A stretch of 64,000 nt of DNA from Croceicoccus pelagius (GTDB lineage Bacteria > Pseudomonadota > Alphaproteobacteria > Sphingomonadales > Sphingomonadaceae), in assembly GCF_001661915.1 (NCBI RefSeq), contig NZ_LYWY01000030.1, positions 1 to 64,000 on the forward strand, given 5' to 3'. Positions 50 through 21,386 of the stretch are shown here, in pieces. How positions within the stretch are numbered: the first letter of the stretch is position 1; each line of letters begins with the position of its first letter. A model generated the notes under the pieces. The model saw only the letters and a program-made list of their open reading frames with translations. It had not been told where the DNA came from and ran no database searches. Both the position numbers and the translations under genes were made by a program.

Positions 50-817
50 TCAGGGGTTGGGGCGTGCTTTTCGTGCCTGGCTCTGGGCCAGACGATAGCT
101 CTCGCCATTCATTTCCAGGATGCTGACGTGGTGGGTAAGCCGGTCGAGAAGCGCGCCGGTCAGGCGCTCGGAACCGAACGTTTCGGTCCATTCGTCGAAC
201 GGCAGGTTGCTGGTGATCAGCGTCGAGCCACGCTCGTAACGCTGCGAGATCAGTTCGAACAGCAGTTCCGCGCCGGTCTTTGACAGGGGAACGAACCCCA
301 GCTCGTCGATGATGAGGAGCTTGTATCCGGCCATCTGCTTTTGCAGGCGCAGCAGGCGGCGTTCGTCGCGTGCTTCCATCATTTCGCTGACCAGCGCGGA
401 CGCGGTGGTAAAACCGACTGTCAGACCCTTCTGGCAGGCCGCGAGGCCCAGGCCGATCGCGACATGGGTCTTGCCGGTTCCTGACGGGCCAAGGGCGATG
501 ACGTTCTCGCGCCGGATGATCCATTCGCAGCGCGCCAGTTCGAGCACCTGCATCTTGTTGAGCTTCGGGATGGCGGTAAAATCGAAGCTGTCGAGGCTCT
601 TGGCCGCCGGGAACCGCGCGGCCTTGATCCGGCGCTCGACCATCCGCCGTTCCCGGTCGATCAGTTCCAGTTCGACAAGCCGGGCAAGATAGCGGACATG
701 ATCCACGCCCTCTGCCGCGCATTGCCGGGCCAGCTTGTCATGCTCACGCAGGAACGTCGGCAGCTTGAGCGTCTTGAGGTGATTGGTGAGCAGCAGTTCG
801 GGAGCCGGGCTGCTCAT
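50..817 (-). CDS. istB: IS21-family transposition helper ATPase IstB
   Basis: This 255-residue AAA+ ATPase assists the IstA transposase in target capture and strand transfer. A Walker A motif (GPSGTGKTH, about residue 109) and a Walker B motif (LLIIDELGF, about residue 167) are intact, and the C-terminal part has the SNLPFDEW and ERLTGALLDRLTHH signatures of IstB. The length is normal for the family. Its ATG overlaps the istA stop in an ATGA arrangement, the usual IS21 coupling. The gene looks complete and functional. Confidence 0.95.
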   Translation of the reverse strand: MSSPAPELLLTNHLKTLKLPTFLREHDKLARQCAAEGVDHVRYLARLVELELIDRERRMVERRIKAARFPAAKSLDSFDFTAIPKLNKMQVLELARCEWIIRRENVIALGPSGTGKTHVAIGLGLAACQKGLTVGFTTASALVSEMMEARDERRLLRLQKQMAGYKLLIIDELGFVPLSKTGAELLFELISQRYERGSTLITSNLPFDEWTETFGSERLTGALLDRLTHHVSILEMNGESYRLAQSQARKARPNP

Positions 818-2369: not shown

Positions 2370-2437
2370 GTGGACGACTTTTACGCCGCCCGCAGCAGCA
2401 CTGCGCCGCCGCTACCGTGGCCTAATTTTGCACCGCC
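2370..2437. repeat. IS21 terminal direct repeats (two copies)
   Basis: Two 21-base copies lie between the istA start and the element end: 2370-2390 (GTGGACGACTTTTACGCCGCC) and 2417-2437 (GTGGCCTAATTTTGCACCGCC). They match at 16 of 21 positions. Multiple inner repeats of this kind are the transposase-binding sites of IS21 elements. Here they also encode the foreign C-terminal tail of the leuD-like gene. Confidence 0.75.
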
Positions 2438-3055
2438 GTTCTCACCTAGTAATATTGGCGGCAATTCGCGGCAGTTGGCCTGCTGCCAGGCCAACAAGGT
2501 GGACCGAACCCTCAACGTTTCGGCGATCTCGTCACGCCCTTCGATCAAAGCGCGCTTCCGTCCTTCGGCGATATCGAAGGGCAGCTCGATACCGCCGCCG
2601 TAGGTCACCGTCTGACCAATCAGATCGACCCGTACCCGCGCCCGCCCAGCATCTGCCACTGTTTCTCGAAGCGCAGATATTTCAGGAACGGCAAGAACGA
2701 TCGGCAAAATGCCATTCTTGAAGCAGTTGTTGTAAAAGATTTCGGCAAAGCTTTCGGCTATGATGCAACGAATTCCGAAATCCAGCAGGGCCCATGGCGC
2801 ATGCTCCCTGCTCGAGCCGCACCCGAAGTTTGCCCCTGCCACGAGAATGCCCGCATTGGCCCATGGCACACGGTTGAGAACGAAGTCGGGATTGAGTGAA
2901 CCGTCGGCACGATATCGCATTCTCGCAAACAGGGCACGGCCGAGACCCTTGCGCTCGACGGTCTTCAGAAACTCTCCGGGAAGTATCTTGTCGGTGTCGA
3001 TATTGTCGATCGGTATGGGAGCCGCAGTCGCTTCAAGGCGTTCGAAACGAGTCAT
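2381..3055 (-). CDS. leuD: 3-isopropylmalate dehydratase small-subunit-like protein, 3' end overwritten by IS21
   Basis: This is the aconitase-family swivel-domain subunit that partners the LeuC-like protein encoded just upstream. The ATG overlaps the leuC-like stop (ATGA). Typical LeuD segments are present: [13 protein letters not shown] near the N-terminus and [19 protein letters not shown] near residue 75. Native sequence runs to about residue 203, close to the roughly 200 residues normal for LeuD. The last ~20 residues (from [10 protein letters not shown] on) are encoded by the IS21 end, so the insertion replaced only the extreme C-terminus and activity may survive. Its place at the end of a catabolic gene train suggests a paralogue acting on a pathway intermediate rather than the leucine-biosynthesis enzyme. 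The true substrate is not known. Confidence 0.85.
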
Positions 3056-4458
3056 CGCTCAAGCTTTCTGGGATCAGCGATCTTGCCCGACAGCGCACTT
3101 GCGGCCGCGACCGCGGGCGAGACAAGATGGGTACGTCCGCCGGTGCCCTGGCGGCCTTCGAAATTGCGGTTCGAGGTGGAGGCACACCGTTCGCCAGGCG
3201 CCAGTCGATCCGGATTCATGCCAAGGCACATCGAGCAGCCAGCTTCCCGCCACTCAAACCCCGCCTCCAGGAAAACGAGATCGAGTCCCAGATCTTCTGC
3301 CTGCAGGCGGACCTGGCCGGAACCCGGTACGATCAGGGCGCGCACGCCGCTGGCGACCTTTTTTCCACGCACGATTTCCGCTGCTGCGGCCAAGTCCTCC
3401 AGCCGCCCATTCGTACAGCTGCCAATGAAAACAACGTCTATCGGGAGGCCCTCGATTGCCTGTCCCGGCGCGAGACCCATGTAATCGAGCATCGCGTGTA
3501 GTTGCGGCTTCTGCTGTTCTGGAAAGTCTTCAGGATCGGGAACCACACCATTGATAGGTACGACCGCATCAGGGCTTGTTCCCCATGTGACCATGGGCGC
3601 CACATCGCGGGCGTCGATGATGACGGTCTTGTCGAATTTCGCCGAAGCGTCAGATCGCAGCGCACCCCATCTTTCGACTGCTGCGTCGAATTCTTCACCT
3701 TGCGCAACATTCGGGCGGCCATGCAACCAATCAAAAGTCTTTCGGTCCGGCGCAATCATGCCTGCGCGAGCACCTGCTTCGATGGTGAGATTACATAACG
3801 TCATTCGCCCGGCCATATCGAGCGCTTCGACAGCAGCTCCGGCATATTCGATGACGTATCCGGTGCCGCCTGCGGTCCCGAGTGTACCGATCACATGAAG
3901 AGCAAGATCCTTTGCCGAGGCACCCGCGCATAGGGCGTTGTCGATCCGAACAAGCATCGTTTTTGACGGCCTCTGACGCAGGGTTTGCGTAGCAAGTACG
4001 TGCTCAACTTCACTGGTTCCGATCCCGAATGCCAAAGCGCCAAATGCTCCATGGGTCGATGTATGGCTGTCTCCACAAACGATAGTCATGCCGGGTTGGG
4101 TCAGGCCAAGCTCCGGTCCGACGACATGCACGATGCCCTGCCGCGCGCTGCGTAAGGGAATGTAGGGGACTTTAAACTGCTCGACATTGCGCTCCAGCGT
4201 TTCGACCTGGAGCCGGCTGGCCGGGTCTTCAATCGGTCCGTCACGGTTATCGGTGGGCACATTGTGGTCAGCCACTGCGATCGTCAGCTCAGGATGTGCG
4301 ACGGTCCGGTCTTGCATGCGCAAGCCCTCGAATGCCTGGGGGCTAGTAACTTCGTTCACGAGGTGCCGGTCGATGTGAAGAAGCCACGTCCCGTCGTCCA
4401 TCTCCAGAATGGCATGAGCATCCCAGATTTTTTCGTACATCGTCCGGGGCGGCATCAC
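3052..4458 (-). CDS. leuC: 3-isopropylmalate dehydratase large-subunit-like protein (aconitase family)
   Basis: This 468-residue [4Fe-4S] hydro-lyase subunit is of normal LeuC length. It shows the family start [29 protein letters not shown], the [20 protein letters not shown] segment, and the three cluster-binding cysteines (one in [10 protein letters not shown], two in [11 protein letters not shown]). With the downstream LeuD-like subunit it should isomerise or (de)hydrate a 2-substituted malate. The ATG overlaps the stop of the lyase gene upstream. Overall similarity is to genuine LeuC, so only context argues for a catabolic role, for example citramalate/citraconate-type chemistry feeding the neighbouring CoA-transferase and lyase. 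Confidence 0.88.
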
Positions 4459-5369
4459 ACCGCCTCCGTCAATTTTGCGCGCAGGGCATTGCGCACTCGC
4501 CCACCGGTTGCCGCGCCCGGTATGCGCTCGGCCTGCAATGATGCAGTCAACAGGCGATCAAGATCAATCCCGGTTTCGACCCCCATCGCATCTAGCGTCC
4601 AGACGAGATCCTCGGTTGCAACATTTCCGGTTGCTCCCGGAGCGAATGGACAGCCGCCGAGGCCGGCGAACGCTGAATCGATCACCGTCACACCTTCCCC
4701 CATAGCCGCGAGTGCATTCGCCACCCCCAGTCCATATGTATCGTGACCATGGAAAGCCCATCCGCCGACTTGCGGGATTTCGGAGACCGCGCGGGCAAAC
4801 AATGCAGAGACCCTGTCTGGGGTGACCCGCCCGGTCGTGTCGCAAAGGGCGATTTCGGCTGCAGGTGTAATCTCCGACAATCGCGCGAGGATTTGCAGAA
4901 CCGCGTCCTGTGCTACCGGCCCGTCAAAGGGACAGTCGAAGGATGTGGCCAAATTGATCCTGACCTTCACTTCGGACGGCAATTCGCTGACCAGCAGCGC
5001 AAACTCCTCGACCGATTCTTCTGGAGTACGACGCACATTGCTCTGGTTGTGCGCCGGCGATGCGGACATCACGAAGGCAATATGCCCGGCACCGGCCTGG
5101 AGCGCCCGCTCGGCTTGACGTCCGGTAGGAACCAGCATCTGGACATCAAGATCGGCGTATCTGGCGCAGTGCGCGAGAATTTCGGGCGCGTCGGCCATCT
5201 GCGGAACCGCGCTGGTACTGACAAAAGCCCCCGCCTCCATCCGCCTGAGGCCTGCTGCATAGAGGCGATCGATGAATTCGAACTTTTGCTCGGTCGGAAT
5301 GAAGTCCTTGATCGGTTGGAAACCGTCACGAGGTCCGACCTCGACAATCTGGATTTTACGCATTGTCAC
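4455..5369 (-). CDS. hydroxymethylglutaryl-CoA lyase family protein
   Basis: This 304-residue DRE-TIM metallolyase has the N-terminal metal and acid-base motif [10 protein letters not shown] and the C-terminal HGHDTYGLG metal-binding histidines. It also has the [19 protein letters not shown] loop that carries the catalytic cysteine of HMG-CoA lyases. Family members cleave 3-hydroxy-3-carboxyalkyl-CoA thioesters by retro-Claisen or retro-aldol chemistry. The ATG at 5369 overlaps the stop of the CoA-transferase gene (ATGA), and another in-frame ATG follows at 5363. Together with that CoA-transferase and the LeuCD-like pair it forms a plausible carbon-carbon cleavage step ending the pathway. Whether HMG-CoA itself, citramalyl-CoA or a larger homologue is the substrate cannot be told. 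Confidence 0.88.
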
Positions 5370-6595
5370 TTGAGCACTCCGCTCTGCTGTAATTGCGCGA
5401 TCTTCCCGGCATCGTAGCCAAGCAGTTCGCGCACGATCCGCACGCCGTCGGCACCGGTCTCGGGGCCGGTATTGCGCACGCTCCCAGGTGCGCCGGGAAA
5501 ATGCGGCACGATTCCCGGGTGCAGGACATCGCCGAACCGGGGATCAGCGACCTCCCGTACCATTCCGCGCGCACGGTATTGTTCGTCAGTCGCGATATCT
5601 TCCGCAGTGTACACTTTTGACGAAGGTATGCCCGCCGATTCCAGCGCATCGAGCAGCTGCTGCGTATCGAGCGACTGCGACCACCGTGTAATGATCCGAT
5701 CGAGTTCCCATGCGTTCGCGACCCGTTCGGCATTGCCCGCGAAGCGTTCGTGCCCAATCAAATCCCTGCGGTCCATCAGTTCTGCAAGGGCCGCGAACAA
5801 CGGCTCCGAGTTCGCCGCGATCAGGACGAACTCGCCCTGCTTAGACGGATATGCGTTGGAGGGTGCCGCCGTGGCGATGGCCCCTCCGGTCGGCTGCTTT
5901 ATCCGCCCAAGCGCGCCAAATTCAGGGAGCATCCCCTCCATCAGGCTCAAAACGCTCTCCGTCAGCGCGACATCGACGGTCTGATACCGTTGATCACTCC
6001 CCCTGCGCTCGCGCCGCCACAGCGCTGAGACGATGCCCAGCGCTGCATAAAGACCGGCGAGCGAGTCGCCGACGCTGATGCCTACCCGGACTGGCGGAAG
6101 ATCGGATGTACCGGGCGGGTGGTCGGTCAGATAGCGCAGCCCCCCAACGGCCTCGCCAATGACGCCGAACGCGGCACGATCCTTACCGGGACCCGTTTGC
6201 CCATACCCAGAGATATGGGCGACGATAAGATCGCGATTGCCTTCACGCAGAACATCCGGACCCAGACCCATTTTCGTGAGCTGACCGGGGCGGAAATTCT
6301 CGACCACGACATCGCATTTCTGCGCAAGATCGATAGCGATCCTTCGACCTTCCTCGGACTTTAGATCGAGAGCGATGCTTTGCTTGTTGCGACCGTGGAC
6401 CGACCACCAGAGGGATTTGCCATCGACCTGGGCACCCCACTGCCGGACCGGGTCGCCACGCAGAGGTTCGATCTTTACGACCTCAGCCCCGAGATCGGCT
6501 AGCAAGCGGGTACAGAACGGCGCGGCCACGAAGTGGCCGATCTCAAGCACTCTGACCCCGTCAAGAACGCCTGGCAGGGTTGCGGACTCGCTCAC
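5366..6595 (-). CDS. class III (CaiB/BaiF-type) CoA-transferase
   Basis: This 409-residue protein has the family start LDGVRVLEIGHFVAAPFCTRLL, the KIEPLRGDPVR segment and the expected nucleophilic aspartate at residue 177 in ISVGDSLAGLYAA. Class III enzymes move CoA between carboxylic acids, typically from succinyl-CoA or acetyl-CoA, and often activate short hydroxy- or unsaturated dicarboxylates. It sits between the lyase and the NTF2-like gene, overlapping both by four bases. It probably activates the acid that the HMG-CoA-lyase-like enzyme then cleaves. The acid and CoA donor are not identifiable from sequence. Confidence 0.9.
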   Translation of the reverse strand: MSESATLPGVLDGVRVLEIGHFVAAPFCTRLLADLGAEVVKIEPLRGDPVRQWGAQVDGKSLWWSVHGRNKQSIALDLKSEEGRRIAIDLAQKCDVVVENFRPGQLTKMGLGPDVLREGNRDLIVAHISGYGQTGPGKDRAAFGVIGEAVGGLRYLTDHPPGTSDLPPVRVGISVGDSLAGLYAALGIVSALWRRERRGSDQRYQTVDVALTESVLSLMEGMLPEFGALGRIKQPTGGAIATAAPSNAYPSKQGEFVLIAANSEPLFAALAELMDRRDLIGHERFAGNAERVANAWELDRIITRWSQSLDTQQLLDALESAGIPSSKVYTAEDIATDEQYRARGMVREVADPRFGDVLHPGIVPHFPGAPGSVRNTGPETGADGVRIVRELLGYDAGKIAQLQQSGVLK

Positions 6596-7230
6596 GAGGC
6601 AGCGTCCTGCGCTTCCCTCGTCAGACGGTCGTAGCGCTCGACGCGGGCGGGATCGACCACTAGCGGGCGTTCATAGGAAGGATCGCTTGTATCGCGGCTC
6701 GCCTGCTGCCCCGTTTCGGCCACAGCAAATTCATGAGGCGCGATGCAGTCGAAGTTTGGGGCTCCCTCCGGCGTCTTGCTTCCTTCGATCGTATTGATCG
6801 ATGGTGCGACCCAGTCGACGATATACTTGCGATGCGCGATGGCCCATTTGCCTTCGCGCTTCTCCATCCGGTCGATGTAGCGACCGCCGATTGAACTGAA
6901 CGGGGCGCCTGTCGTGTTCATTGCCGAGTAGGAGAGATAGGTTTCGCAATGGGCGGTTTCACCGTCAATTTCCACATGATGATTACCGATCATGTGCTGG
7001 GTCGCGCTCTGATATTGGCCGTGCAGGTTCTTGACCCAGTCCCAGAACGCGTCGGGTGGCCCGACAAAACTGCCGTGATCGTCCATCGCATCGGGGTGAT
7101 AAGCCGACATAACCATGTCCCGATCAAGTCGATCGCACCCGCGGCAATAGCGCACCACGACGTCATAGATTTCCTGGCGATCCATGAGATAGGTCAGCTT
7201 CGCTTCCATCTCTTCTATCGTCATGCTCAT
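6592..7230 (-). CDS. NTF2/SnoaL-like domain protein
   Basis: This 212-residue protein has an N-terminal cone-shaped alpha/beta fold typical of SnoaL-like proteins. The segment IYDVVVRYCRGCDRLDRDMV with the following YHPDAMDDHG and HMIGNHHVEIDGETAHCETY is characteristic of the group found beside ring-hydroxylating and steroid or terpenoid genes. Members include delta-5-ketosteroid-isomerase-like enzymes, dehydratases and non-catalytic proteins. The C-terminal ~60 residues (about 155-212) go beyond the usual domain. The ATG overlaps the upstream oxidoreductase stop. An isomerase or dehydratase on an oxidised substrate fits the context, but no catalytic residue can be assigned with confidence. 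Confidence 0.75.
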   Translation of the reverse strand: MSMTIEEMEAKLTYLMDRQEIYDVVVRYCRGCDRLDRDMVMSAYHPDAMDDHGSFVGPPDAFWDWVKNLHGQYQSATQHMIGNHHVEIDGETAHCETYLSYSAMNTTGAPFSSIGGRYIDRMEKREGKWAIAHRKYIVDWVAPSINTIEGSKTPEGAPNFDCIAPHEFAVAETGQQASRDTSDPSYERPLVVDPARVERYDRLTREAQDAAS

Positions 7231-8360
7231 ATACCACTCTCCATGTTCCAGCCGGCCGCGTGTCTGATCCGATCAAGCAATCGGTGCAGCTTCACGGCGT
7301 CGGCAAAATCCGGCACGCTGGCGGCACCGGTCCTCAGGTCTTTGGAAACTGCGTGATAGGCATGCGCCACGCTATCGGCGTGACTGTCCTCCGCAGTCGT
7401 GCACTGGCGATAGATCGGGGGAATTTGGAGCGGCCGCAGCTCTTCCTCGCCCTGCCCGCCGCTTATATCAAGATGACCGTATTGCAGATGACCGCTGCCG
7501 GACTCGATCAGGAGCGCTCCGGAATCACCGGAAATTTCCCAACGCAGATTGCCTGCAGGAGACTCTCGGCCGGTATAGTGCAGCGAAGCGACCGCGCCCG
7601 ATTGAAGGGTGCCCGATACGACCACCTCATCCGGTCCATTGGCTGCGATTGTCTCCCCGGTGTCGGTGAGTTTTACCTGAGGAAACTGCACCGCCATTGT
7701 CGCGTCGAGTTCCGCGAATTCGCCAAGAACCCACGTTAAACCGTCGATCATATGGCCGAAGGGGATCGTGAAGAGAGTAGCCCCGAGACTGTCATCGAGC
7801 GTGTAGGCAAGCGAAGCGAGCGCTTGGCCGCTCCAGGGAAACCCGCCGGAGCCCGTCACTCGGGTCGAAATGACCCTGCCGACATATCCTTCCTCCACGA
7901 GATCGCGGATATAGCGCAAGGCCGGAGAGCTGCGGGCCTGCAAGCCGACGAAGTGCCGCACGCCTGACTTGCGCGCAGCGTCCAGCATCTCCTCCGCCTC
8001 AGCCGTGTTGCGGCCTAGCGGCCATTCGCAATAGACATCCTTTCGGCAATTAAGCGCCTTCTGAACTAGACCACGGTGCTCCGGCACTTTCACGGCCACG
8101 ACCACCAGCTCGACATCTCCGCTTGAGGCCAGGACCAGCGCATCGCTAGTCGCCATCGAGACTGCGTGCGCCTTTGCGGCAGCTTCAGCGGATTTGCCCG
8201 AACTCGCCGAGAGAGCAACAACGTCGAATTTGGCGGGCATCGAGCGCAGTGCGGGAAGATGAGCCAGGCTCGCCCACCCTCCGTTTGCGCTCAATCCGAT
8301 AATGCCGACGCCGCAGCTATGCGGCGCAGCACCTTCGGCGGCTGGCTCCTCGTCAGCCAT
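7227..8360 (-). CDS. Gfo/Idh/MocA-family NAD(P)-dependent oxidoreductase
   Basis: The 377-residue protein has an N-terminal Rossmann segment (VGIIGLSANGGWASLAHLPA), more loosely matched to GxGxxG than usual. The dinucleotide-proximal motif around residue 115 reads CEWPLGRNTAEAEEML, where EKP is replaced by EWP. A C-terminal alpha/beta substrate domain contains the HMIDGLTWVLGEF helix. Members oxidise or reduce sugars, inositols, dihydrodiols or bile pigments. It starts directly after the P450 stop (TGAATG), so the two are translationally linked, and it may oxidise the P450 product. The substrate is unknown. Confidence 0.85.
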   Translation of the reverse strand: MADEEPAAEGAAPHSCGVGIIGLSANGGWASLAHLPALRSMPAKFDVVALSASSGKSAEAAAKAHAVSMATSDALVLASSGDVELVVVAVKVPEHRGLVQKALNCRKDVYCEWPLGRNTAEAEEMLDAARKSGVRHFVGLQARSSPALRYIRDLVEEGYVGRVISTRVTGSGGFPWSGQALASLAYTLDDSLGATLFTIPFGHMIDGLTWVLGEFAELDATMAVQFPQVKLTDTGETIAANGPDEVVVSGTLQSGAVASLHYTGRESPAGNLRWEISGDSGALLIESGSGHLQYGHLDISGGQGEEELRPLQIPPIYRQCTTAEDSHADSVAHAYHAVSKDLRTGAASVPDFADAVKLHRLLDRIRHAAGWNMESGI

Positions 8361-9617
8361 TCAACCCGCCTGCTTCGCACCGAGCGTGAACTGCACGTGC
8401 AGGCTTTCGAGAGCATGGACCTGGAAATTCGCCATCCACTGCGGCGCAGGGTGCTTTTCGGACAGTCGCAGATCCTTCAGGCGCTCCAGCAGGCGCCGGA
8501 TCGCAACCCTCATTTCCATGCGCGCAAGCTGGTTGCCGACGCAAAAATGGATACCGCGGCCGAAGGCGAGGTGATTGCGGACACCTTTACGATCAATGTC
8601 GATGGTTTCGGGGCACTCCCATTTGGCCTTGTCGTAGTTCCCCGCGAGATAGCTCACCGCGATGATCGTATCCTTCGGGACCGGGAAACCGCCAATTTCC
8701 GTGTCTTGAGTGGTGTAGCGGTACTGCTGAGGCACAGGGGCATGCGCACGCAGCATCTCTTCGATGACGGCTGGAACAGCCTTTTCCTCGGTCATCACGC
8801 GCTCTTTCAGGGCGGGGTCCTTAAGGATCATCCACATTGCGCTTGTGATGCCGGTCGTGGTCGTTTCGTTTCCGGCCACAAGGATAAGTTGCGCTACCAT
8901 CAATAGCTGCCCCATGGTGAGGCGTTCGCCATCGACATCGGCATGGACCAGCCGTGAAATCAGATTGTCGCTGGGATTGGCCTCATAGTAACGCGCCCGC
9001 TCGGCGAGGTAATTCTGCATGTCGATCATGCGATCAGTCAGCATGAGCTCGCGATCCGGCGGGCAGTTCGGATCGTTGCGATCCACCCAGGCGTTCGACC
9101 AGAGTTTAAATTGCTCGTAGTCCTTGCGATCGACCCCCAGCTGATCCGAGATAATATACATCGGGAGATGGACTGCGAAACCGGCGCTGAGGTCAGTTTC
9201 GCCATCCTCGATGAAGCCGTCGATCAGGTCATCGATGATCGCCAGCGCATAGGGTTCGAGCTGCTTGGTGTAGCTTGGCGTGAAGACCTTATCGACAAGC
9301 GCGCGATGTAGCGTGTGCTCGGGCGGGTCGGCGAATGCCAGAACATGCTCTTCCGGCCATCCCCGCTCCTTGTATCGCCGGGCGACTTCTTCGGAAACCG
9401 AGGTTTTCCGGTTGATCATGATTGGCGTGCGGCTGGAAAAAATATCCGGATTGCTGTTGACGAAATTGATGTCCTCATAGCGACTTACCCAGACCATGCC
9501 GGTGCCCTCGTCGCGATAGACCGGAGCCTCCTCGAGCAGGCGGTTGAGGTGCGGAATAGGGCAGCGCTGCACCTCAGGGGACGCCCAGGTCCCAAAATCC
9601 TTCGCTGAAGATGTCAT
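8361..9617 (-). CDS. cytochrome P450, class I bacterial type
   Basis: This 418-residue soluble P450 has the oxygen-binding I-helix motif LVAGNETTTTG and the haem-ligand loop FGRGIHFCVGNQLARME with Cys359 as thiolate. An ExxR-type K-helix segment lies between them. The length is normal and there is no fused reductase. The same gene train encodes a [2Fe-2S] ferredoxin and a flavin ferredoxin reductase that can supply electrons, making a CamABC-like three-component system. A good ribosome-binding site (AGAGGAG) precedes the ATG. The family includes hydroxylases of terpenoids, steroid side chains and fatty acids. No signal peptide is seen, so it acts in the cytoplasm. Confidence 0.95.
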   Translation of the reverse strand: MTSSAKDFGTWASPEVQRCPIPHLNRLLEEAPVYRDEGTGMVWVSRYEDINFVNSNPDIFSSRTPIMINRKTSVSEEVARRYKERGWPEEHVLAFADPPEHTLHRALVDKVFTPSYTKQLEPYALAIIDDLIDGFIEDGETDLSAGFAVHLPMYIISDQLGVDRKDYEQFKLWSNAWVDRNDPNCPPDRELMLTDRMIDMQNYLAERARYYEANPSDNLISRLVHADVDGERLTMGQLLMVAQLILVAGNETTTTGITSAMWMILKDPALKERVMTEEKAVPAVIEEMLRAHAPVPQQYRYTTQDTEIGGFPVPKDTIIAVSYLAGNYDKAKWECPETIDIDRKGVRNHLAFGRGIHFCVGNQLARMEMRVAIRRLLERLKDLRLSEKHPAPQWMANFQVHALESLHVQFTLGAKQAG

Positions 9618-9758
9618 ATTCCGCTCCTCTTGCTCGGCCGCCGAATTTCAAATCGCCACTTAGGATAATGGCGGGTTCGGTCGTGCTTTGGAGCAAGAGC
9701 TAACAGACCATGCCAATCACTTCAGTCACCGAAGGGCGGGACAAGATCGGGGCATCTT

Positions 9759-10619
9759 CTAAAGCGGCGCAGACCGATAGATGTCGAGAATGACGTCGTC
9801 GATTTCGCGATCGGAAGAGTTCTTTGCCAGGTTCAGCATGTATCTTGCATCATCGCCAATGGGATAGCGCGTCGAAGGCGGATTTTCGCGCAAGGCCTCG
9901 ATTACCCCTGCCGCGGCCGCCTCCGGCGACGAGTATGTACCGTTGGCGAGCGCTTCATCGGCGCGATACTTCATCTGACGGTAGAGATCGCCATATCGTT
10001 CCGCCTGATTGGCTGACAGGTTGGCAATCGTGTGGCCGAGGTCCTCCTGGGTTCGCCGCATCATTGGCGTGTCGAGCGCACCCGGCTGGATCAGCACGAT
10101 CTCGACCCCCCAGCCCTGAGCTTCCTGACGCAGGACATCGGTAAGGCCCTCAAGAGCGAATTTCGACGCGACATAGGCGGCCATAACCGGGGTCGCCACC
10201 TTGCCGGAATAAGAACCAGTCAGGACCAGCCTGCCCCTCGTTTTGCGAAGATGCGGTATGGTCGCCTGGTAGATGGCGAGCGCTGCGCTACAGTTGATCT
10301 CGATTGTGCGTCGAAATTCTTCGATGGCGACCATTTCAGCGGGAGCGCATGGCGCAACCGCAGAGCAGACAACAACCGCATCAACCCGTGACAGCCGACT
10401 GGAAAGAGCCGCAATCCTTTCCTTCACCGCGACGGCATCGGAAAGATCGAGAGCCTCGACAGCCTCGCAGGAAGGGCAATCCGCAAGAAAGGGATCGATA
10501 GCAGCCCGGCGCGACACTGTAGCTGTGAGCGCATAGCCGGTATCAAGCAGCGCCCGCGCAACTGCCCTTCCCATCCCGCCATTCGCACCTATCAGCAATG
10601 CTGCAGGCTTGGCACTCAC
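9759..10619 (-). CDS. short-chain dehydrogenase/reductase (SDR 1)
   Basis: The 286-residue SDR has the cofactor-binding glycine motif as IGANGGMGRAVA, catalytic Ser in LVLTGSYSGK and Tyr-Lys in YVASKFALEG. The C-terminal extension (about residues 190-286) is longer than in classical 250-residue SDRs and includes the substrate loop PGALDTPMMRRTQ. Its ATG overlaps the stop of the upstream kinase gene. A 141-base gap separates it from the P450 gene downstream, the largest gap in this part of the train. The likely reaction is oxidation of a secondary alcohol, substrate unknown. Confidence 0.88.
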   Translation of the reverse strand: MSAKPAALLIGANGGMGRAVARALLDTGYALTATVSRRAAIDPFLADCPSCEAVEALDLSDAVAVKERIAALSSRLSRVDAVVVCSAVAPCAPAEMVAIEEFRRTIEINCSAALAIYQATIPHLRKTRGRLVLTGSYSGKVATPVMAAYVASKFALEGLTDVLRQEAQGWGVEIVLIQPGALDTPMMRRTQEDLGHTIANLSANQAERYGDLYRQMKYRADEALANGTYSSPEAAAAGVIEALRENPPSTRYPIGDDARYMLNLAKNSSDREIDDVILDIYRSAPL

Positions 10620-11728
10620 AGGCCTTCCCTGACCAGGGCAAGCGTTTCATGATCCTCGACTGCCGTCGAGACACGCAGCAAAGCTACTGCCAGCGTATCC
10701 CAGCCATAGCTGAGCGGTGGGCAGGTGAGCCAGCCAATATAGAGGGTCCACAGCGCTGCACGGCGATGCTCGCGCCACAGCATGTCCATATCGGGCGGAC
10801 TGACAAGGCCATTGGCGACAAGACAATCTCGATAATGCTCCAGCAAGTCTCGCTCGTGCACACGGCGCTGGGAGACTGAGAGGGACGTGTTGATGATGTA
10901 TGTGACATCGTGCAGGGCAAATCCCTTCACGCACAGCTGCCAGTCATGCAGTCCTACCGTGCCATCGGGCATCAGATAGGTGTTCCCGATGTGCAAGTCA
11001 CCGTGCAGCAAGGTTTGGGGCAGCTTCGATTGATGCAGCTTGTTTGCGCACATGCCCGCGAAAAGTTCACGTTCGCTGGTGCCCAAGCGCTCGAGAATTT
11101 CCCGCTTGAACTTGTGCTGCTGCAGTTCGCTTGCGATGCCCTTTTCCGGAATCACGCTGCGCATATGAGTTTCGACGCGCCCGGACAGGTGCGTCTCGAC
11201 CCAGGCAAGATCATCCTGGAATCGCTCGCTTTCCCAGAATTGCGCATGCAGCCGTGCGACAGTGGAGAGGATCCGTTTGACGTGGTCGAGCGCAATATCG
11301 TCCTGATTGCTCGGGAATCGCGCACCCCTTCTGGTGACGTCTTCCATCGCCAGGATGTATCGTCCGGTGGCCTCGTCGAAGTACCCTCCCAGCGCGAGCG
11401 GCGCTTCCAGCGAGAGTTCGGGACGAATGCGATTGTAGAAATCGACCTCGTTGTCGAACAACCCGGTGAGATTGCAAAACCACGCATCCGTTCCCTCGAC
11501 GCGCGGATCGAACGACAGCTTTAGGACTATGTCCTTCGGGAGCTCGCACGCGGGGTCGGAATAGGCCAATCGGGCGGTGGCCCGGGACGAGGTGGAAACA
11601 TCGCCCTCGCCGTACTCGTGTGCCCGGACGATTTCGACAGCGGTGACCAGTGCCTCGGGGTAGCGCCGGCGTACGATCCCGGTCATGAGTTCTGGCGTGA
11701 TATCGAAAGGAGAAAGAGGAATGTCCAT
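10616..11728 (-). CDS. ecdysteroid-kinase-like / aminoglycoside phosphotransferase-fold kinase
   Basis: This 370-residue protein has a protein-kinase-like fold with the catalytic loop LLHGDLHIGNTYLMPDG near residue 241 and the metal-binding segment GLHDWQLCVKG about 20 residues later. The DWQ form is the one seen in ecdysteroid-kinase-like and CHK-kinase-like families rather than in antibiotic kinases. Bacterial relatives are often found in steroid, terpene and aliphatic degradation clusters but their substrates are mostly unproven. Here it sits between SDR 1 and the SRPBCC gene, two bases from the latter. It may phosphorylate a hydroxylated intermediate, which could drive elimination or trap the compound in the cell. 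Confidence 0.8.
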   Translation of the reverse strand: MDIPLSPFDITPELMTGIVRRRYPEALVTAVEIVRAHEYGEGDVSTSSRATARLAYSDPACELPKDIVLKLSFDPRVEGTDAWFCNLTGLFDNEVDFYNRIRPELSLEAPLALGGYFDEATGRYILAMEDVTRRGARFPSNQDDIALDHVKRILSTVARLHAQFWESERFQDDLAWVETHLSGRVETHMRSVIPEKGIASELQQHKFKREILERLGTSERELFAGMCANKLHQSKLPQTLLHGDLHIGNTYLMPDGTVGLHDWQLCVKGFALHDVTYIINTSLSVSQRRVHERDLLEHYRDCLVANGLVSPPDMDMLWREHRRAALWTLYIGWLTCPPLSYGWDTLAVALLRVSTAVEDHETLALVREGL

Positions 11729-11730
11729 CG

Positions 11731-12168
11731 TTATTCAAAAAGGTCTGCAAGCAGGTCGAGGCTTGTCGCCAACAGGTCGTAGCGGCTTTTTTCAAAATCC
11801 TTCGCTTCGCCAGGCTGAAGCGGGGTGTCATAGGTCAGCGTTCGGACGACGAGAGTGGTATCGTCGGCCGTCACCGGATGGAGTTTCATCGCTCCCCTGA
11901 CATTGTAAACCGGCAATGGCAGCTCGCCGACAACATCGTATTCCTGATAGAACCTTCGATCATCCTGTGTCGTAAGAATTTCATCGAAGAACGAACCATC
12001 GCCATAAGTCACCCGGCGCTTGGTCCCGATCGTCAGCCCGGTGCCACCGGTGACGGCGATTTCAGGATTGTGTTCGATCCAGCGAGAATGGGATTCGAAG
12101 TCTCGAATAGCACCCCACACTTTCGCTACCGGAGCCTTGATCACCCTGCTTGCGGTTACCCTTGGCAT
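11731..12168 (-). CDS. SRPBCC (START/polyketide cyclase-like) protein
   Basis: The 145-residue protein has the helix-grip start SRVIKAPVAKVWGAIRDFESHSRWIEHNP and the central strand sequence GTKRRVTYGDGSFFDEIL typical of the polyketide-cyclase/dehydrase-2 group. It ends with the long C-terminal helix (LATSLDLLADLFE) that closes the hydrophobic pocket. Such proteins bind lipophilic ligands and in some pathways act as cyclases or dehydratases. It lies 27 bases from the SDR 2 gene. A ligand-binding or isomerising role in the same pathway is likely, but catalysis cannot be shown. Confidence 0.82.
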   Translation of the reverse strand: MPRVTASRVIKAPVAKVWGAIRDFESHSRWIEHNPEIAVTGGTGLTIGTKRRVTYGDGSFFDEILTTQDDRRFYQEYDVVGELPLPVYNVRGAMKLHPVTADDTTLVVRTLTYDTPLQPGEAKDFEKSRYDLLATSLDLLADLFE

Positions 12169-12195
12169 TGTATCATGTCCTTGATTCTTGGCACT

Positions 12196-12948
12196 TCAGA
12201 TTGCGGTCATCCCGCCGTCAACGACAAGCGACGAGCCTGTGATGAACGAAGCCTCGTCGCTTGCGAGAAACGATACGACGGCAGCAATTTCTTCGGGTCG
12301 GGCAAAGCGTTTCAAGGCGTGCTTGTCCGCCCAGGCTTTGTAAGTGCCTTCGTCCATGAAAGATTCAGCCAAGGGGGTGAGTACTCCACCCGGACAAATC
12401 GCATTGATTCTGATTCCGTGCGCGCCGTATTCCAGTGCCGCGCCGCGCGTCAGGCCGAGCATACCCGCCTTGGCGGCGGAATAGACCGACAGGTTCTCGA
12501 AGCCGATGAGCGCGCCGACCGAAGACATGTTGATGATCGACCCCGAACCCTCTGCCACCATGGATGGCAGGACCGCTTTCATCGTCGACCAGCATGATCG
12601 CAAGTTCACGTCCATGACACGCTGGTAATTCTCTTGATGGCCATCGGCGAGGAGAGCGAGTTGGCCGTCGATGCCGGCGTTGTTGACCAGAATATCGATC
12701 CGGCTCCACCGATCGAGCGCTGAACGGACGAACAGATCGACTTGCGTGTCATCGGCAACGTCTGCGATTTCGGCGACGGAAGAATCGCCGAGCTCGAGCG
12801 AAAGAGCCTGAACCTGTTCTGAAACGTCGACGCAGACAACTCTTGCGCCTTCGGCGGCCAACCGCCTGGCGGAGGCTTCACCGATGCCGCTCGCAGCGCC
12901 GGTTACGATCGCAACCCGTCCTGTAAGGCGTCCTGCAACTGACATCAT
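12196..12948 (-). CDS. short-chain dehydrogenase/reductase (SDR 2)
   Basis: This 250-residue classical SDR has TGAASGIGEASARRL for cofactor binding, NNAGIDGQLAL, catalytic Ser in IINMSSVGAL, Tyr-Lys in YSAAKAGML and the terminal DGGMTAI signature. Asp in CVDVSEQ at the end of the second strand suggests NAD(H) preference. Two ATGs lie at the start (12948 and 12945), and the first overlaps the SDR 3 stop. Alcohol oxidation in the catabolic pathway is the likely role. Confidence 0.9.
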   Translation of the reverse strand: MMSVAGRLTGRVAIVTGAASGIGEASARRLAAEGARVVCVDVSEQVQALSLELGDSSVAEIADVADDTQVDLFVRSALDRWSRIDILVNNAGIDGQLALLADGHQENYQRVMDVNLRSCWSTMKAVLPSMVAEGSGSIINMSSVGALIGFENLSVYSAAKAGMLGLTRGAALEYGAHGIRINAICPGGVLTPLAESFMDEGTYKAWADKHALKRFARPEEIAAVVSFLASDEASFITGSSLVVDGGMTAI

Positions 12949-13697
12949 CCAGTGGTCCAGCCTCCGTCAACAGCGTAGGCGCTGCCGGTTACGAAACTGG
13001 CCCCTTCGGACAAAAGGAACGCTATCACCGAAGCTACTTCTTCCGGCTTTCCGGGCCGGGGAATCGGCAATGCCTGCGCAAACTGGAGGATGGGCGCGAA
13101 GGCGTCGTCATCACCGTCTGGGCGGACCATCGGCGTATCGATCAAACCTGGATGCACCGAGTTTACCCGGATCCCGTCAGCGGCCAGGTCCAGAGCCGCG
13201 ACCTTCGTCATCCCCGTTACGGCAAATTTGCTACCCACGTAACCAATCGCACCAGGCGCTGCTTTTAGCCCGGCAACCGATGACACGTTAACGATCGAAC
13301 CGCCGCCTGCCTTGCGCATTGATGGGGTCACCGCTTTCATTCCAAGAAAGCAGGCGAGCTGATTGACTTCAAATATCCTGCGGAACGATTGCTCGTCGAC
13401 CTGGTCCAGCGGAGCTGGCGCGGCGGCAATCCCGGCGCAGTTGACCAAACCGGTCACCGGACCCGCAACGCTTTCGATTTTCGAGACGATGTCCCGCCAA
13501 TCGCCTTCTTGGGTGACGTCATGTGGGAAAAACGTCGCCCGTTCTTCGAGCTCCAACGCGAGTTCGGCGCCCTGCGCTTCCGAAAGGTCGGTAATTGCTA
13601 CCGTAGCGCCGGCCTCTATTGCCGCTCGAACAGTCGCGGCTCCGATCCCGCTCGCCCCGCCGGTGACAATGATGTTCCGGTCCGCAAGGTCCTGCAT
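12945..13697 (-). CDS. short-chain dehydrogenase/reductase (SDR 3)
   Basis: This 250-residue classical SDR has TGGASGIGAATVRAA, NCAGIAAAPAPLD, Ser in IVNVSSVAGL, Tyr-Lys in YVGSKFAVTGM and the C-terminal DGGWTTG. ITDLSEA points to NAD(H). The start is placed at the ATG at 13697 because AAAGGTAAGG precedes it. An in-frame upstream ATG would add 19 residues with no family match. It is similar in layout to SDR 2 but the two diverge enough to act on different intermediates. Confidence 0.9.
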   Translation of the reverse strand: MQDLADRNIIVTGGASGIGAATVRAAIEAGATVAITDLSEAQGAELALELEERATFFPHDVTQEGDWRDIVSKIESVAGPVTGLVNCAGIAAAPAPLDQVDEQSFRRIFEVNQLACFLGMKAVTPSMRKAGGGSIVNVSSVAGLKAAPGAIGYVGSKFAVTGMTKVAALDLAADGIRVNSVHPGLIDTPMVRPDGDDDAFAPILQFAQALPIPRPGKPEEVASVIAFLLSEGASFVTGSAYAVDGGWTTG

Positions 13698-13777
13698 ATC
13701 CTTACCTTTTCCGCTGATGCATATCCGACCGGGGGCGGGGTACGAACCTCGCACCCCGTCGAGCCCCTGTCGTCAAT

Positions 13778-16108
13778 TCAATATCGGAAGCTGAAGGATG
13801 CGCCGAAGGTCCGGGGTTCACCCGTAAAGCGAACAGCACCGTCTCCGGCAGAAGCGACCGAGTTCCAGTAGTACTCGTCGGTCAAATTGCGACCGTAGAT
13901 GCTTAGTCTCCAACCATTGTCGGAGATTAGCCCAACGCGGGCATCAAGTAGCGTGTAGGACGGCATCGCAAAATTTGCGGGCTCGCCAAGATCGGCGAAG
14001 GTGTTATCGCGATAAGTGACGCTACCTCCGATGAACGGTCGCACACTTCCGCTGGTCTGGAACTCGTACTCGGCATCGACATTTGCCGACCATGGCGGAG
14101 CGTAGTTAAATTCCTTGCCAGTGAAGTCTAGAGGTTGGCCGGCGAAATCGAACCCGACGTAGTTGCCAACCTCAGTCTTAATGTAAGTCGCGCCGCCCCT
14201 GATCGTCAAACCATCGACCGGCTCTGCCGTTATGTCGAACTCGAAGCCATCCACCGTCGACTCAGGAATATTGACGAGCGTGGCGGTAACCAGTGCACCC
14301 TGAAGAACCGGCAGGAACGAGAAAAACTGCTTGTCCTTGTAATCGTAGTGAAAAGCAGCGGCGTTGAGTTGAACGCGACCATCTGCAAGCGTCAGCTTCG
14401 CGCCCGCTTCATAGGACGTCAACTCCTCTTGCGTGACCGGCTGAATGACCGAATTGAACAGGTTGATGATGACAGGATATGTGCCGGCTTTATAGCCACG
14501 GCTTACCGATCCATAGAGCAGCACCTGATCCGATGGCTCGTAGCTAATAACTCCGCGCCAGGCGATGTTGTCCTCTTTCTGAGTCTGATCGGCAAACACC
14601 GGCAGGAAGGAGAAGTTCGGCGGACCATCATCGATAGTGATGCACCCGCCTGGAACGTACGCCGCAGCCAGGGCAGGGTTGATCCCTGCTACGATGAACT
14701 GGCTGATACCTCGCACTCCGGGATTCCCACCTTGATCGAAAGTGCAACCAAAGATCGACTGTTCGGTATCGGTGTAGCGGGCACCGGCGCTCAGGGTGAG
14801 ACCATCGACAATCTCGAAGTCGACATTGCCAAATACCGCCAGTGCTTTCTGGGTCAGATCGTAGCGCCATTCGGCAGGTGAATTGGGGGGAAACCCGGTG
14901 TAGCCGACATAGTCGTTGGCGACGCCTTCGGTGATGTCGTCATCGGCGTAGCTACCGCCAACGACAAACCGCACCCGTCCATCTGCAAAGTCGCCGGCGA
15001 GCCGGATCTCCTGGTTGATCGACTCGATATCAGCCTTCGATACGGCCGGCTGCATCGGAACGGCCGTGCCGTCCTGATCATGCGGGGACCGAAAGCGCGT
15101 ATCTATGTAGTTCGTAATCGACGTGAATGTCAGACTATCGGTTATCTCATATTCTGCTCTCAGGATCGCCTGAACGGTATGACTATCCGCCCGCGTGTCG
15201 AGACCTCGGTCGAAATCCGCATCGCGGGCATCATTAGGTTCGTTGCCAATATAGGATAGGAACGGACCTGCTGCAGGCGCGGCCGGATTGACGGGCGTGA
15301 ACAGAAACGCCTGCGCCTGCTGCTGCTCACTCTTGTCGTAGGAGGCATTGAGATTGAGCGCCACCGACAAACGATCAGTCGGTGTCCAGTCGAGTAGCAG
15401 CCTGCCTGCCACCTTATTCTGATCGCCGTTCTTCTCATCGTTGAGGAAATAGCCGCGCTGCCAGCCCCCAAACTGAGTAGTTTGCGCCGCCACTCGCGCT
15501 CGCAGCGTGTCGCTCAGCGGCCCGCTGACGTATGCCTCGGCGTTCGTTTCACCCCAGGTGTTGACATCGACCCGGAAACCCGCCTCGAGGGAAGATGTGG
15601 GTTTCGCCGCGATGACGTTAATCGATCCGCCGGTCGCATTCTGCCCAAAAAGGGTTCCCTGAGGTCCTTTCAAGACCTCGACACGCTCGACATCGAGAAA
15701 CATTGCTTGTCCCATGATTGGGTAAGGAATGGATGCCTCGTCGATGTAGGAACTGACAGTCGGAGGGGCGGAAGCCTGGAAGGAGTTGAAGTTTACGCCG
15801 CGCAGCGAAAACACCGGCGGCCCGAACACCGAGGTGGATGCAGTAAAGCCGGGAACGATGGCACCCAGGTCGGTGGCATCGACGACACCGGAAGCCTGAA
15901 GTGTTTCTGCGGTAGCGGCCACGACCGAAACCGGCACGTCGCTCAGCTTCTCTTCGCGCTTCTGCGCGGTAACGATTATCTCAAGACCGGTGCCGCTCTC
16001 GCTCGCCTGGTCGTCAGCCACGTCCTGAGCGAATGCGCTGACCGGAAAAGTGAACAGAGAACCCGCAAGTACCGTCCAAGCCACCGATACATAAAACTTT
16101 TGCTTCAT
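13778..16108 (-). CDS. TonB-dependent outer-membrane receptor of the catabolic island
   Basis: This 776-residue receptor has a signal peptide ending VSAFA-QD, a TonB-box-like stretch (LEIIVTAQKREEKLSDVPVS), a plug domain with the VERVEVLKGPQGTLFGQNATGG motif and a long beta-barrel ending in Phe-Arg-Tyr (ASFSFRY). Sphingomonads commonly place such receptors in catabolic islands to import poorly soluble substrates. It belongs to the same minus-strand train and has a strong AGGGAGGATG start. The ligand is not predictable, but its position between the SDR and ferredoxin-reductase genes ties uptake to the P450 pathway. Confidence 0.93.
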   Translation of the reverse strand: MKQKFYVSVAWTVLAGSLFTFPVSAFAQDVADDQASESGTGLEIIVTAQKREEKLSDVPVSVVAATAETLQASGVVDATDLGAIVPGFTASTSVFGPPVFSLRGVNFNSFQASAPPTVSSYIDEASIPYPIMGQAMFLDVERVEVLKGPQGTLFGQNATGGSINVIAAKPTSSLEAGFRVDVNTWGETNAEAYVSGPLSDTLRARVAAQTTQFGGWQRGYFLNDEKNGDQNKVAGRLLLDWTPTDRLSVALNLNASYDKSEQQQAQAFLFTPVNPAAPAAGPFLSYIGNEPNDARDADFDRGLDTRADSHTVQAILRAEYEITDSLTFTSITNYIDTRFRSPHDQDGTAVPMQPAVSKADIESINQEIRLAGDFADGRVRFVVGGSYADDDITEGVANDYVGYTGFPPNSPAEWRYDLTQKALAVFGNVDFEIVDGLTLSAGARYTDTEQSIFGCTFDQGGNPGVRGISQFIVAGINPALAAAYVPGGCITIDDGPPNFSFLPVFADQTQKEDNIAWRGVISYEPSDQVLLYGSVSRGYKAGTYPVIINLFNSVIQPVTQEELTSYEAGAKLTLADGRVQLNAAAFHYDYKDKQFFSFLPVLQGALVTATLVNIPESTVDGFEFDITAEPVDGLTIRGGATYIKTEVGNYVGFDFAGQPLDFTGKEFNYAPPWSANVDAEYEFQTSGSVRPFIGGSVTYRDNTFADLGEPANFAMPSYTLLDARVGLISDNGWRLSIYGRNLTDEYYWNSVASAGDGAVRFTGEPRTFGASFSFRY

Positions 16109-16212
16109 ACATCCTCCCTCTCTCGGTTCCGGTGTCCCGGATTTATCTGACAGCAGTGTAGGATCATGTGGTGAACCGGTATGTCCCTATGATAGGTGAC
16201 AATCCAAACAGG

Positions 16213-17445
16213 CTACTGGGAGACAGATTCTTTCAAGGGTATCGAGGCATCCGCCAGCCTGACCGGATCGATTTTGGTTCTCGACTCGATCAGTTTTCGA
16301 GCCTGGACGTAGTCCTTCGTGTTGTTGACGCAATCGATGGCCACGACCCGGCCATCTTTGCAATAGACAAGCGAGAACTTTGCTTCGGCAACCGATCCTC
16401 GCACTACGGCTTGATCATATTCGACCGAGAGACCGGCAGTCTGCAAACGGCAATCGTATTGATTGGACCAGAACCACGGGAGCGCATCATATGTCACGTC
16501 TTGTCCGCAGAGCACTTTCGCAACAGTGTTCGCCATGTCGCTCGCGTTCTGCACCGATTCAACTCTGAAGTGCCTACCCCCGGCCCAGGCATTGGCATAG
16601 CAGGCACAATCGCCGATGGAGAATATGCCGGCCACGCTCGTCCTACATTGCTTGTCAACGTCGATCCCGTTCTCTCCTGTGGCTCCGGTCCGCTTGACCG
16701 GTTCGACCGACGGAATAATTCCGATACCCACGATCACCATGTCGGCGGGGATATGGATTCCATCGGTCAACTCCACTCCCGAAACTTTGAAACCATCGCC
16801 GACGAGACGCTTCACACCCACGCCGAGCCGCAGATCGACGCCCTGCTTTGTATGCATGGATTGCACGAAATCGCTGATGGTTTCACCCGCCACGCGGGAC
16901 AGCACCCGCGGCAATGCTTCGACAAGGACGACTTCGCGTCCAATTTTGCGAAGTACGGCAGCTGCTTCGAGACCGACATAGCCGCCGCCAATGACGACAA
17001 TGCGATGGGCGCCAGAGCGCAGACTGGCTACAATGCGATCGACATCGGCGCGGCTCCGAACGCCATGTACCCCTTGGAGATGGGCTCCTGGGCAGCTCAG
17101 CATTCGCGGTTCGCCCCCCGCAGCCCAGACAAGCGACCCGTAAGCGAATCGTCTGTCGTCCTCCGAAATGGCGACATGGGATTCAGCGTCGATCGACACA
17201 ATGTTGCAGCCCAGTTCGATCTCGATTTTCTTGCTGTCCCAGAACTCAGCCGGTCGGATCAACAGGCGTTCAAAAGGCTTATCGCCAGCGAGATATTCCT
17301 TCGATAGCGGTGGCCGTTCGTATGGCGGTTCAGTGTCACGGCTCACCATAAGGATCGAGCCTTCAAAGCCAAACTGGCGGAGACTAATGGCTGCCTGGGC
17401 ACCGCCATGCCCCGTCCCGACTATTACAACGTCATACATTTTCAT
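16213..17445 (-). CDS. FAD-dependent ferredoxin reductase of the P450 electron chain
   Basis: The 410-residue flavoprotein has an N-terminal FAD Rossmann motif (VIVGTGHGGAQAAISLR) and PPYERPPLSKEYLAG, the signature of putidaredoxin-reductase-like enzymes. A second NAD-binding motif reads VVIGGGYVGLEAAAVL, and the FAD-contacting FSIGDCACY lies near residue 280. It should pass electrons from NADH to the [2Fe-2S] ferredoxin encoded 61 bases upstream. No other partner reductase is visible in the window. Confidence 0.92.
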   Translation of the reverse strand: MKMYDVVIVGTGHGGAQAAISLRQFGFEGSILMVSRDTEPPYERPPLSKEYLAGDKPFERLLIRPAEFWDSKKIEIELGCNIVSIDAESHVAISEDDRRFAYGSLVWAAGGEPRMLSCPGAHLQGVHGVRSRADVDRIVASLRSGAHRIVVIGGGYVGLEAAAVLRKIGREVVLVEALPRVLSRVAGETISDFVQSMHTKQGVDLRLGVGVKRLVGDGFKVSGVELTDGIHIPADMVIVGIGIIPSVEPVKRTGATGENGIDVDKQCRTSVAGIFSIGDCACYANAWAGGRHFRVESVQNASDMANTVAKVLCGQDVTYDALPWFWSNQYDCRLQTAGLSVEYDQAVVRGSVAEAKFSLVYCKDGRVVAIDCVNNTKDYVQARKLIESRTKIDPVRLADASIPLKESVSQ

Positions 17446-17506
17446 GGCAATCTCCGCCCAGCCAGCAGTTGGGATTTGTGCGAAGACAAACCCTCGGCTA
17501 GTCTTT

Positions 17507-17824
17507 TCAATCCTCTTGAGCGATTGTGATTTTCAGCCCGTCCAAGTCTTCAGTGAGTGGGATCTGGCAGGACAGCCGCGACTGGTTGTCTCGATGTTCG
17601 GAACTCTCCAGAATGTCGTCCTCGTCATCGCTCATATCGGGAAGTCTGGGTAGCCAGCTCTCATCCACGTGAACATGACAAGTAGCACACGAACAGCACC
17701 CTCCACAGAGAGCGAGGAGTTCATCGACACCGGAATCCCGGAGCGCTTCCATCAGTGAACCGTCAGGCGCTGTCGAAATGGCCTGAGTGCTTCCATCTCT
17801 CAGTGTTGCTAGAATACTGATCAT
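17507..17824 (-). CDS. [2Fe-2S] ferredoxin, putidaredoxin/adrenodoxin type
   Basis: This 105-residue ferredoxin has the cluster motif [10 protein letters not shown], matching the C-x5-C-x2-C pattern, and the fourth ligand in LSCQIPL. Two extra cysteines sit inside the first loop, which is unusual. It ends with the acidic surface typical of P450 redox partners ([17 protein letters not shown]). The ATG at 17824 overlaps the pccA stop as ATGA. With the reductase downstream and the P450 further on it completes a class I P450 system. Confidence 0.93.
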
Positions 17825-21325: not shown

Positions 21326-21340
21326 TTTCCTACATCATAT

Positions 21341-21355: not shown

Positions 21356-21386
21356 TTTCCCGATTCGACCATTAAAGGATTCGGGC

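Follow-up and report, generated by a model that had tools for sequence, protein, structure and literature searches.

What does a run of fifteen genes, reaching on one strand from an outer-membrane receptor to homologues of leucine-biosynthesis enzymes, do in Croceicoccus pelagius, and is it a pathway in its own right? The run occupies positions 2381-17833 of the window, by which we mean the whole 64,000-nucleotide stretch analysed (contig NZ_LYWY01000030.1 of assembly GCF_001661915.1, positions 1 to 64,000, forward strand). All fifteen open reading frames (ORFs) are uninterrupted and on the minus strand, and profile models back every family, in agreement with the preliminary description of this locus. 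Read along that strand, the genes are fdx, fdr, TonB receptor, sdrA, sdrB, SRPBCC, ecKL, sdrC, p450, gfo, snoaL, caiB, hmgL, leuC and leuD; we refer to these genes as the train. They had been taken to form one pathway. They do form one unit, but comparison with relatives indicates that the train appears to be the first part of a mobile cluster of about 36 kb and 33-35 genes; searches of the window genome did not find the second half. We consider it rather likely that the cluster encodes cytochrome P450-initiated catabolism of a lipophilic cyclic compound, in which oxygenation would be followed by retro-Claisen ring opening and an ending performed by LeuCD, CaiB and an HMG-CoA-lyase-type (HMGL-type) enzyme, with every reaction and the substrate deduced from sequence.

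The case begins with the relatives. Six of them hold 13-15 of the fifteen train genes in the same order, with amino-acid identities of 53-100%: Novosphingobium sp. B1, Novosphingobium sp. FKTRR1, Croceicoccus G382, the sphingomonad G162 (labels of this kind are our own handles) and two plasmids that also carry full clusters, Sphingobium sp. TKS pTK2 and Sphingobium sp. MI1205 pMI1, of which the former is typed as mobilizable and the latter as conjugative. In these gene-by-gene comparisons the best of overlapping matches was kept, and gene starts in the relatives come from a simple ORF caller, not a gene finder. Both G162 and G382 have all fifteen genes in order (84-100% and 84-97% amino-acid identity, respectively). 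At the DNA level, with blastn matches above 100 bits considered, window 2445-17958 is collinear with B1 (98.6% over 15.5 kb), 2445-20567 with G162 (90.4%) and 2448-17858 with G382 (87%). A scan of named genomes around hmgL, in which 80 loci were kept of at least 580 confirmed, recovered the train from receptor to leuD in three of the 80, namely B1 (98-100%), G382 (84-97%) and FKTRR1 (53-79%); the neighbourhoods of these loci comprise matches over at least 40% of the query and, for short-chain dehydrogenases/reductases (SDRs), of at least 45% identity. The FKTRR1 copy (contig C13, 4400-28000; L206, L205) lies on an 80.6-kb contig together with proteins that by eye are conjugation-like. A near-DNA search of plasmids with the whole train gave partial matches only, none reaching 80% of the query, and the clusters emerged through annotation and protein searches. 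With the Gfo protein as query, matches at 1e-40 came from 32 of 397 genomes of the family, and identity exceeded 45% only in the window genome, G162 and G382; judged by such searches, the train is uncommon in the family.

What follows leuD in these relatives extends the picture. All six continue with 19-20 of the 20 second-half genes of B1 that were used as queries. This half encodes a VOC protein, a LuxR-type regulator (on the opposite strand), an alpha/beta hydrolase, an SDR, a second P450, a Rieske ferredoxin and a flavodoxin-domain reductase; then a TauD dioxygenase, an SDR, a crotonase resembling 6-oxocamphor hydrolase (OCH), an enoyl-CoA hydratase, an AMP-binding acyl-CoA ligase and a GMC oxidoreductase; and finally a crotonase, more SDRs, coenzyme A (CoA)-transferase subunits A and B (on the opposite strand) and a Rieske oxygenase. 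Names given without profile runs (for example, of the CoA-transferase subunits and of the LuxR-type regulator in G162 and B1) rest on similarity to the annotated pTK2 and pMI1 copies. The OCH-like enzyme, encoded in all six relatives, matches the beta-diketone hydrolase 2j5g at E 8e-64 and 6-oxocamphor hydrolase 1o8u at E 3e-53. One second-half SDR sits at differing places in two lineages. Within the G382 second half one SDR was not found and another matched in two pieces (C7, about 125856-126643), so that this copy may be decaying too. The second P450, the Rieske ferredoxin and a flavodoxin-type diflavin reductase stand in one run (L036:3000-6380 and L211:29674-33114), a redox set that is, to our knowledge, unusual. 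The second half of G162 contains two identical 277-residue ORFs, by eye IS5-type transposases (C1:2436158-2436991 and 2447506-2448339).

A seventh genome, G017, is rearranged. It has homologues of 13 of the fifteen train genes (38-71% identity) within about 67 kb. The same stretch also contains homologues of 17 of the 20 second-half genes, at 46% identity or above; the gene order differs, and there are two P450 and three OCH-like paralogues. Since train and second half are together there despite rearrangement, G017 provides good evidence for joint function. The preliminary view that the genes belong together as a catabolic unit is borne out to the extent that they are inherited together, the order recurring at six other loci and scattering among unrelated neighbours being seen in none of these full relatives.

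Why, then, does the window hold only half? Window 50-2322 (minus strand) is an IS21-type insertion element (istB 50-817, istA 814-2322; IstB_IS21 and Mu-transpos_C_2 domains), whose edge at 2444 adjoins leuD; the contig begins at window 1, inside this copy. DNA homology of the cluster with its relatives stops at window 2445 in blastn, and two other IS21 copies that reach the edge match the window to 2444 and to 2446. LeuD has 204 residues in common with its G162 relative (206 residues), followed by 20 residues read from the IS21 junction. The element has 14 identical matches on 11 contigs of the genome, many of them at contig ends or within about 350 bases of one, and the repeat therefore breaks the assembly; it probably also drives rearrangement. 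Searched as DNA in the window genome, which is rated 100% complete, the two pieces of the second half matched 74 bases of leuD and otherwise gave only short or diverged hits (66-86%), and the best hit to the OCH-like protein there was a partial match at 36%. A deletion at IS21 is the simplest account of the missing half. The pathway of the window strain is probably incomplete, being limited to a partial conversion or representing a recently broken remnant.

The genes that were kept are well preserved. Compared with G382, dN/dS ranges from 0.04 to 0.25 across all fifteen, which indicates that purifying selection acts on each of them; the comparison with FKTRR1 gave no value for nine of fifteen genes (seven saturated, two without a match) and that with B1 none for three (dS zero). 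Motifs were seen wherever they were sought, including the P450 heme loop, SDR YxxxK, the ferredoxin cysteines, RDG, HGHD and GLGGCP of HMGL, the LeuC cysteines and HGDxHxxN of the kinase. The HMGL motifs are unchanged across seven relatives. Packing is tight from p450 through leuD, although four-base overlaps, previously said to mark most junctions, occur at seven of the 14, that is, at half; the remaining gaps are 0, 2, 23, 27, 61, 104 and 141 bases.

Taken in its order along the minus strand, the train opens with the 2Fe-2S ferredoxin gene fdx (17507-17833; PF00111) and the ferredoxin reductase gene fdr (16213-17445; family match). Then come the TonB-dependent receptor (13778-16108; Plug and barrel domains), the family-matched SDRs sdrA (12945-13754) and sdrB (12196-12948), the SRPBCC protein (11731-12168; PF10604), an EcKL/APH-type kinase (10616-11728; PF02958, motif HGDLHIGN) and a third family-matched SDR, sdrC (9759-10619). 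The cytochrome P450 (8361-9617; PF00067) has the heme loop FGRGIHFCVG. It is followed by a Gfo/Idh/MocA oxidoreductase with a Gal80-like C-terminal domain (7227-8360; family match) and a SnoaL/NTF2-like protein (6592-7230; PF13577), perhaps a dehydratase to judge from a weak BaiE match (E 0.001). The family III CoA-transferase CaiB (5366-6595; PF02515) has as its nearest solved relatives YfdE and succinate-hydroxymethylglutarate CoA-transferase, with the YfdE match slightly better. HmgL (4455-5369) scores 274.2 bits with NF004283 (cut-off 246) and matches HMG-CoA lyases in the PDB down to E 3e-57. The large subunit LeuC (3052-4458) reaches 707.7 bits with TIGR00170 (cut-off 560) and has GSCTN and CSMC motifs, whereas the small subunit LeuD (2381-3055), homologous up to window 2445, passes TIGR00171. 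NCBIfam subfamily cut-offs were passed by HMGL and two SDRs.

The window thus contains a complete class I P450 set, as had been claimed: a P450 with its heme loop, a 2Fe-2S ferredoxin and an FAD reductase. The claim holds for the window but not for the cluster at large. In the window, B1, G162 and G382 the train has fdx and fdr next to it; these two genes were not found in the fetched stretches of the other three relatives (FKTRR1, pTK2 and pMI1), so the complete system is a lineage feature.

On the proposed route, the TonB receptor would take up a lipophilic cyclic compound, which the P450, served by the ferredoxin and its reductase, would hydroxylate, and the SDRs and the Gfo enzyme would form ketones. 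Complete copies would apply further oxygenases, after which the OCH-like enzyme would open a cyclic beta-diketone. Such an intermediate is likely because the second half in the relatives encodes an OCH-like enzyme, which does not itself name the compound. The resulting acid would be carried on as CoA thioesters, with the kinase and the SnoaL protein perhaps helping to remove a hindered hydroxyl group. LeuCD would then hydrate or isomerise an alkylmaleate or alkylmalate, CaiB would attach CoA, and the HMGL-type lyase would split the product to acetyl-CoA (or a homologue) and a 2-oxo acid.

As to the substrate, a terpenoid is plausible. A steroid-, bile-acid- or diterpenoid-like polycycle in place of a small terpenoid is a minority possibility. 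It would fit the several oxygenases, the weak resemblance of SnoaL to BaiE, the presence of CYP125- and CYP142-type steroid P450s among the best solved matches of the train P450, and the acyl-CoA ligase, whose best NCBIfam model is BaiB. All these matches are remote, however (the ligase scores 327 bits, far under the BaiB cut-off of 650), and the OCH-like match indicates a bicyclic ketone equally. Abscisic acid was dropped as a guess without any support.

The predicted ending deserves separate treatment. The window genome has another LeuC (C40), 61% identical to that of the train, so the train LeuC is a second copy, placed in a mobile catabolic cluster; a housekeeping leucine locus was rejected on this ground. 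Among the 80 kept hmgL loci, some of them on short contigs, 74 have a CaiB homologue, and caiB-hmgL is, by this measure, a widespread pair. LeuC is found at 58% identity or more in 13 of the 80 and at 28-39% in 11 more, and LeuD at 48% or more in 12. Of the 12 leuD-bearing loci, eight include the alpha/beta hydrolase of the second half, seven its LuxR-type regulator and six its VOC protein, some at 30-45% identity. A Halomonas locus has CaiB and HMGL flanking an aconitase-family protein and TRAP transporter genes. CaiB, a TRAP transporter, an aconitase-family protein and an HMGL-type lyase form one run at L174:3882-10948 (checked with Pfam) and also at L160 and L171, an arrangement that suggests uptake and cleavage of a tri- or dicarboxylate. 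In six loci (L132, L133, L134, L135, L137 and L139) the caiB-hmgL pair has Rieske oxygenase, cupin, GST and FAA-hydrolase genes as neighbours, by eye a naphthalene/gentisate-like set. On Sphingobium sp. AntQ-1 plasmid pl4 (L213:4659-9934), caiB-hmgL-leuC-leuD is followed by a ribB-annotated gene, near flavin-dependent LLM oxidoreductases and TonB receptors. The anthraquinone genes that the AntQ-1 paper names in its available portion sit on pANTQ-1, so the pl4 module gave no function (PMC9836352).

Given the known chemistry of the three families, a hydro-lyase, a CoA-transferase and an HMGL-type lyase would suit the cleavage of substituted malates. A bolder version of this idea, which we offer tentatively as a possibility with less than an even chance, is that LeuC, LeuD, CaiB and HMGL constitute a portable end module running leucine-type chemistry backwards. 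On this view, ring cleavage of lipophilic cyclic compounds would lead to an alkylmaleate, which, after hydration and the attachment of CoA, would be split into acetyl-CoA and a branched 2-oxo acid; the 36-kb cluster would then be a new pathway joining camphor-like ring opening to this module, and its window copy would be broken at the insertion element. Alternatively, the four genes might serve general disposal of maleate- or malate-type acids, methylated or not (citramalate, 3-hydroxy-3-methylglutarate), and have been joined to the oxidative genes by chance recombination. They do occur without the oxidative train in nine of the 12 leuD-bearing loci and on AntQ-1 pl4, and CaiB-HMGL pairs are also seen in the company of Rieske, cupin and FAA-hydrolase genes. 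Even so, this alternative is unlikely, as the same partners are kept in the full clusters and in G017, and the alpha/beta hydrolase and the LuxR-type regulator lie near eight and seven of the 12 loci, respectively. It is quite improbable that the window strain already has a complete, working pathway in the train, with the genes after leuD in the relatives forming a separate neighbouring pathway: all fifteen genes are open and under selection, uptake, oxidation and cleavage genes are all present and the window lineage has fdx and fdr beside the train, yet the two halves occur together in all six relatives and largely also in G017, and it is the other half that encodes the LuxR-type regulator, the acyl-CoA ligase and the OCH-like enzyme.

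Our preferred reading, a single P450-initiated pathway whose window copy has lost its second half, must also be set against several observations that weigh on the other side. HMGL and LeuCD pass ordinary family cut-offs, which makes plain HMG-CoA or isopropylmalate chemistry possible; among the models shown, NCBIfam equivalog cut-offs were passed only by the LeuC and LeuD domain models. Matches among the SDRs of different loci hold at the family level only. Promoter and terminator scans of the train came out at chance (6 against 5.8 expected and 14 against 12.9 expected). As for the break, the contig ends inside the IS21 repeat, so the second half may be unassembled, and apart from the LeuD tail the fifteen genes are open, with 98.6% DNA identity to B1, so that decay is not visible.

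The other end of the train bears on its arrival. Window 17821-20567 (minus strand), collinear with G162, holds a second pccA copy (about 17821-19905) and the C-terminal part of methylmalonyl-CoA mutase (mcm, 19902-20465); other pcc/mcm genes exist in the window genome, at 77% identity. In G162, homologues of pccB, mcm and pccA lie immediately upstream of fdx. B1 differs from the window in that only the final 138 bases of pccA remain, of which 13 lie within fdx; next to them stands a pccB-like fragment, without mcm between. From these pcc/mcm remnants beside fdx, the cluster seems to have moved from a site next to pccA, taking pieces of that operon along. Synonymous divergence (dS) from G162 is 0.01-0.04 for leuD to sdrC and 0.16-1.23 for ecKL to fdx, a contrast that looks like a recombination mosaic.

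Beyond lies the native chromosome end (20563-23851), with a primase-like ORF, a transglycosylase, an integrase (22272-23525) and tRNA-Met (23704-23780); this part is collinear with the chromosome of G382 (93.6%). The joint between cargo and native chromosome at 20563-20567 is sharp, the mcm fragment running into the primase-like ORF; it yields long artificial ORFs (window 17821-21325). The G+C content is 0.586 for the train against 0.629 for window 20566-64000. The preliminary description placed the train on a genomic island, and the G+C difference, the sharp joint and the integrase with tRNA-Met support a foreign segment. The integrase, on the other hand, need not have brought the cargo, because the integrase/tRNA-Met end is also present in the G382 chromosome, whose cluster copy sits on another contig. 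Phage cargo was rejected, there being no near match in the phage collection.

How does the cluster relate to known systems? The copies on pMI1 (236762-272902) and pTK2 (128690-164368) keep the train order from the TonB receptor gene through leuD, at 54-81% identity to the window-type proteins; unlike the window, they have the second half, and fdx and fdr were not found beside them. Between sdrC and p450 both have a further gene, annotated as encoding a heme-binding protein, and in both an annotated acetyl-CoA acetyltransferase gene follows that of the alpha/beta hydrolase. The 141-base gap that separates sdrC from p450 in the window was checked for remains of the former gene and gave no match. 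The B1 cluster (NZ_FWXL01000001.1, about 608681-644354) has all fifteen genes and, unlike the window, 20 more past leuD. The Rhodococcus-type camphor pathway proceeds via 6-oxocamphor hydrolase and is not known to include a LeuCD-CaiB-HMGL ending. It resembles the cluster in its P450, its dehydrogenases and, as far as the relatives are concerned, an OCH-like enzyme, but the latter was not found in the window genome, and the cluster has many more oxygenases. The maleate/citraconate hydratase of the gentisate route is LeuCD-like. Set side by side with it by description, the window LeuCD is likewise a hydro-lyase of this type in catabolism, but joined to CaiB, HMGL and a P450 train. Succinate-hydroxymethylglutarate CoA-transferase and HMG-CoA lyase represent the families matched by the train CaiB and HMGL. 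The setting differs, in that the train genes overlap in one run that also includes leuC and leuD, inside a catabolic cluster of a bacterium.

Although the families are known, as are mobile catabolic clusters, this combination of genes looks undescribed. Our search of the open-access literature covered the carrier strains, the combination of genes and leads concerning terpenoids, camphor hydrolases, maleate hydratases, abscisic acid and anthraquinones; it found no description of the cluster, subscription journals and preprints being outside its scope. The genome note for MI1205, as far as its available text goes, reports lin genes on pMI1 and lacks the word 'cytochrome' (PMC4824263).

Overall, our results reveal a cluster of 33-35 genes whose order is kept on two plasmids, one mobilizable and one conjugative, and on other contigs, in at least three sphingomonad genera, and for which we found no substrate assignment. 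One carrier, Sphingobium sp. MI1205, is listed in the available part of its genome note as a culture-collection strain (JCM 17233; PMC4824263), which makes growth and deletion tests feasible. If the proposed LeuCD-CaiB-HMGL ending is true, it would help to read many other clusters, since 74 of the 80 kept hmgL loci have a CaiB gene nearby.

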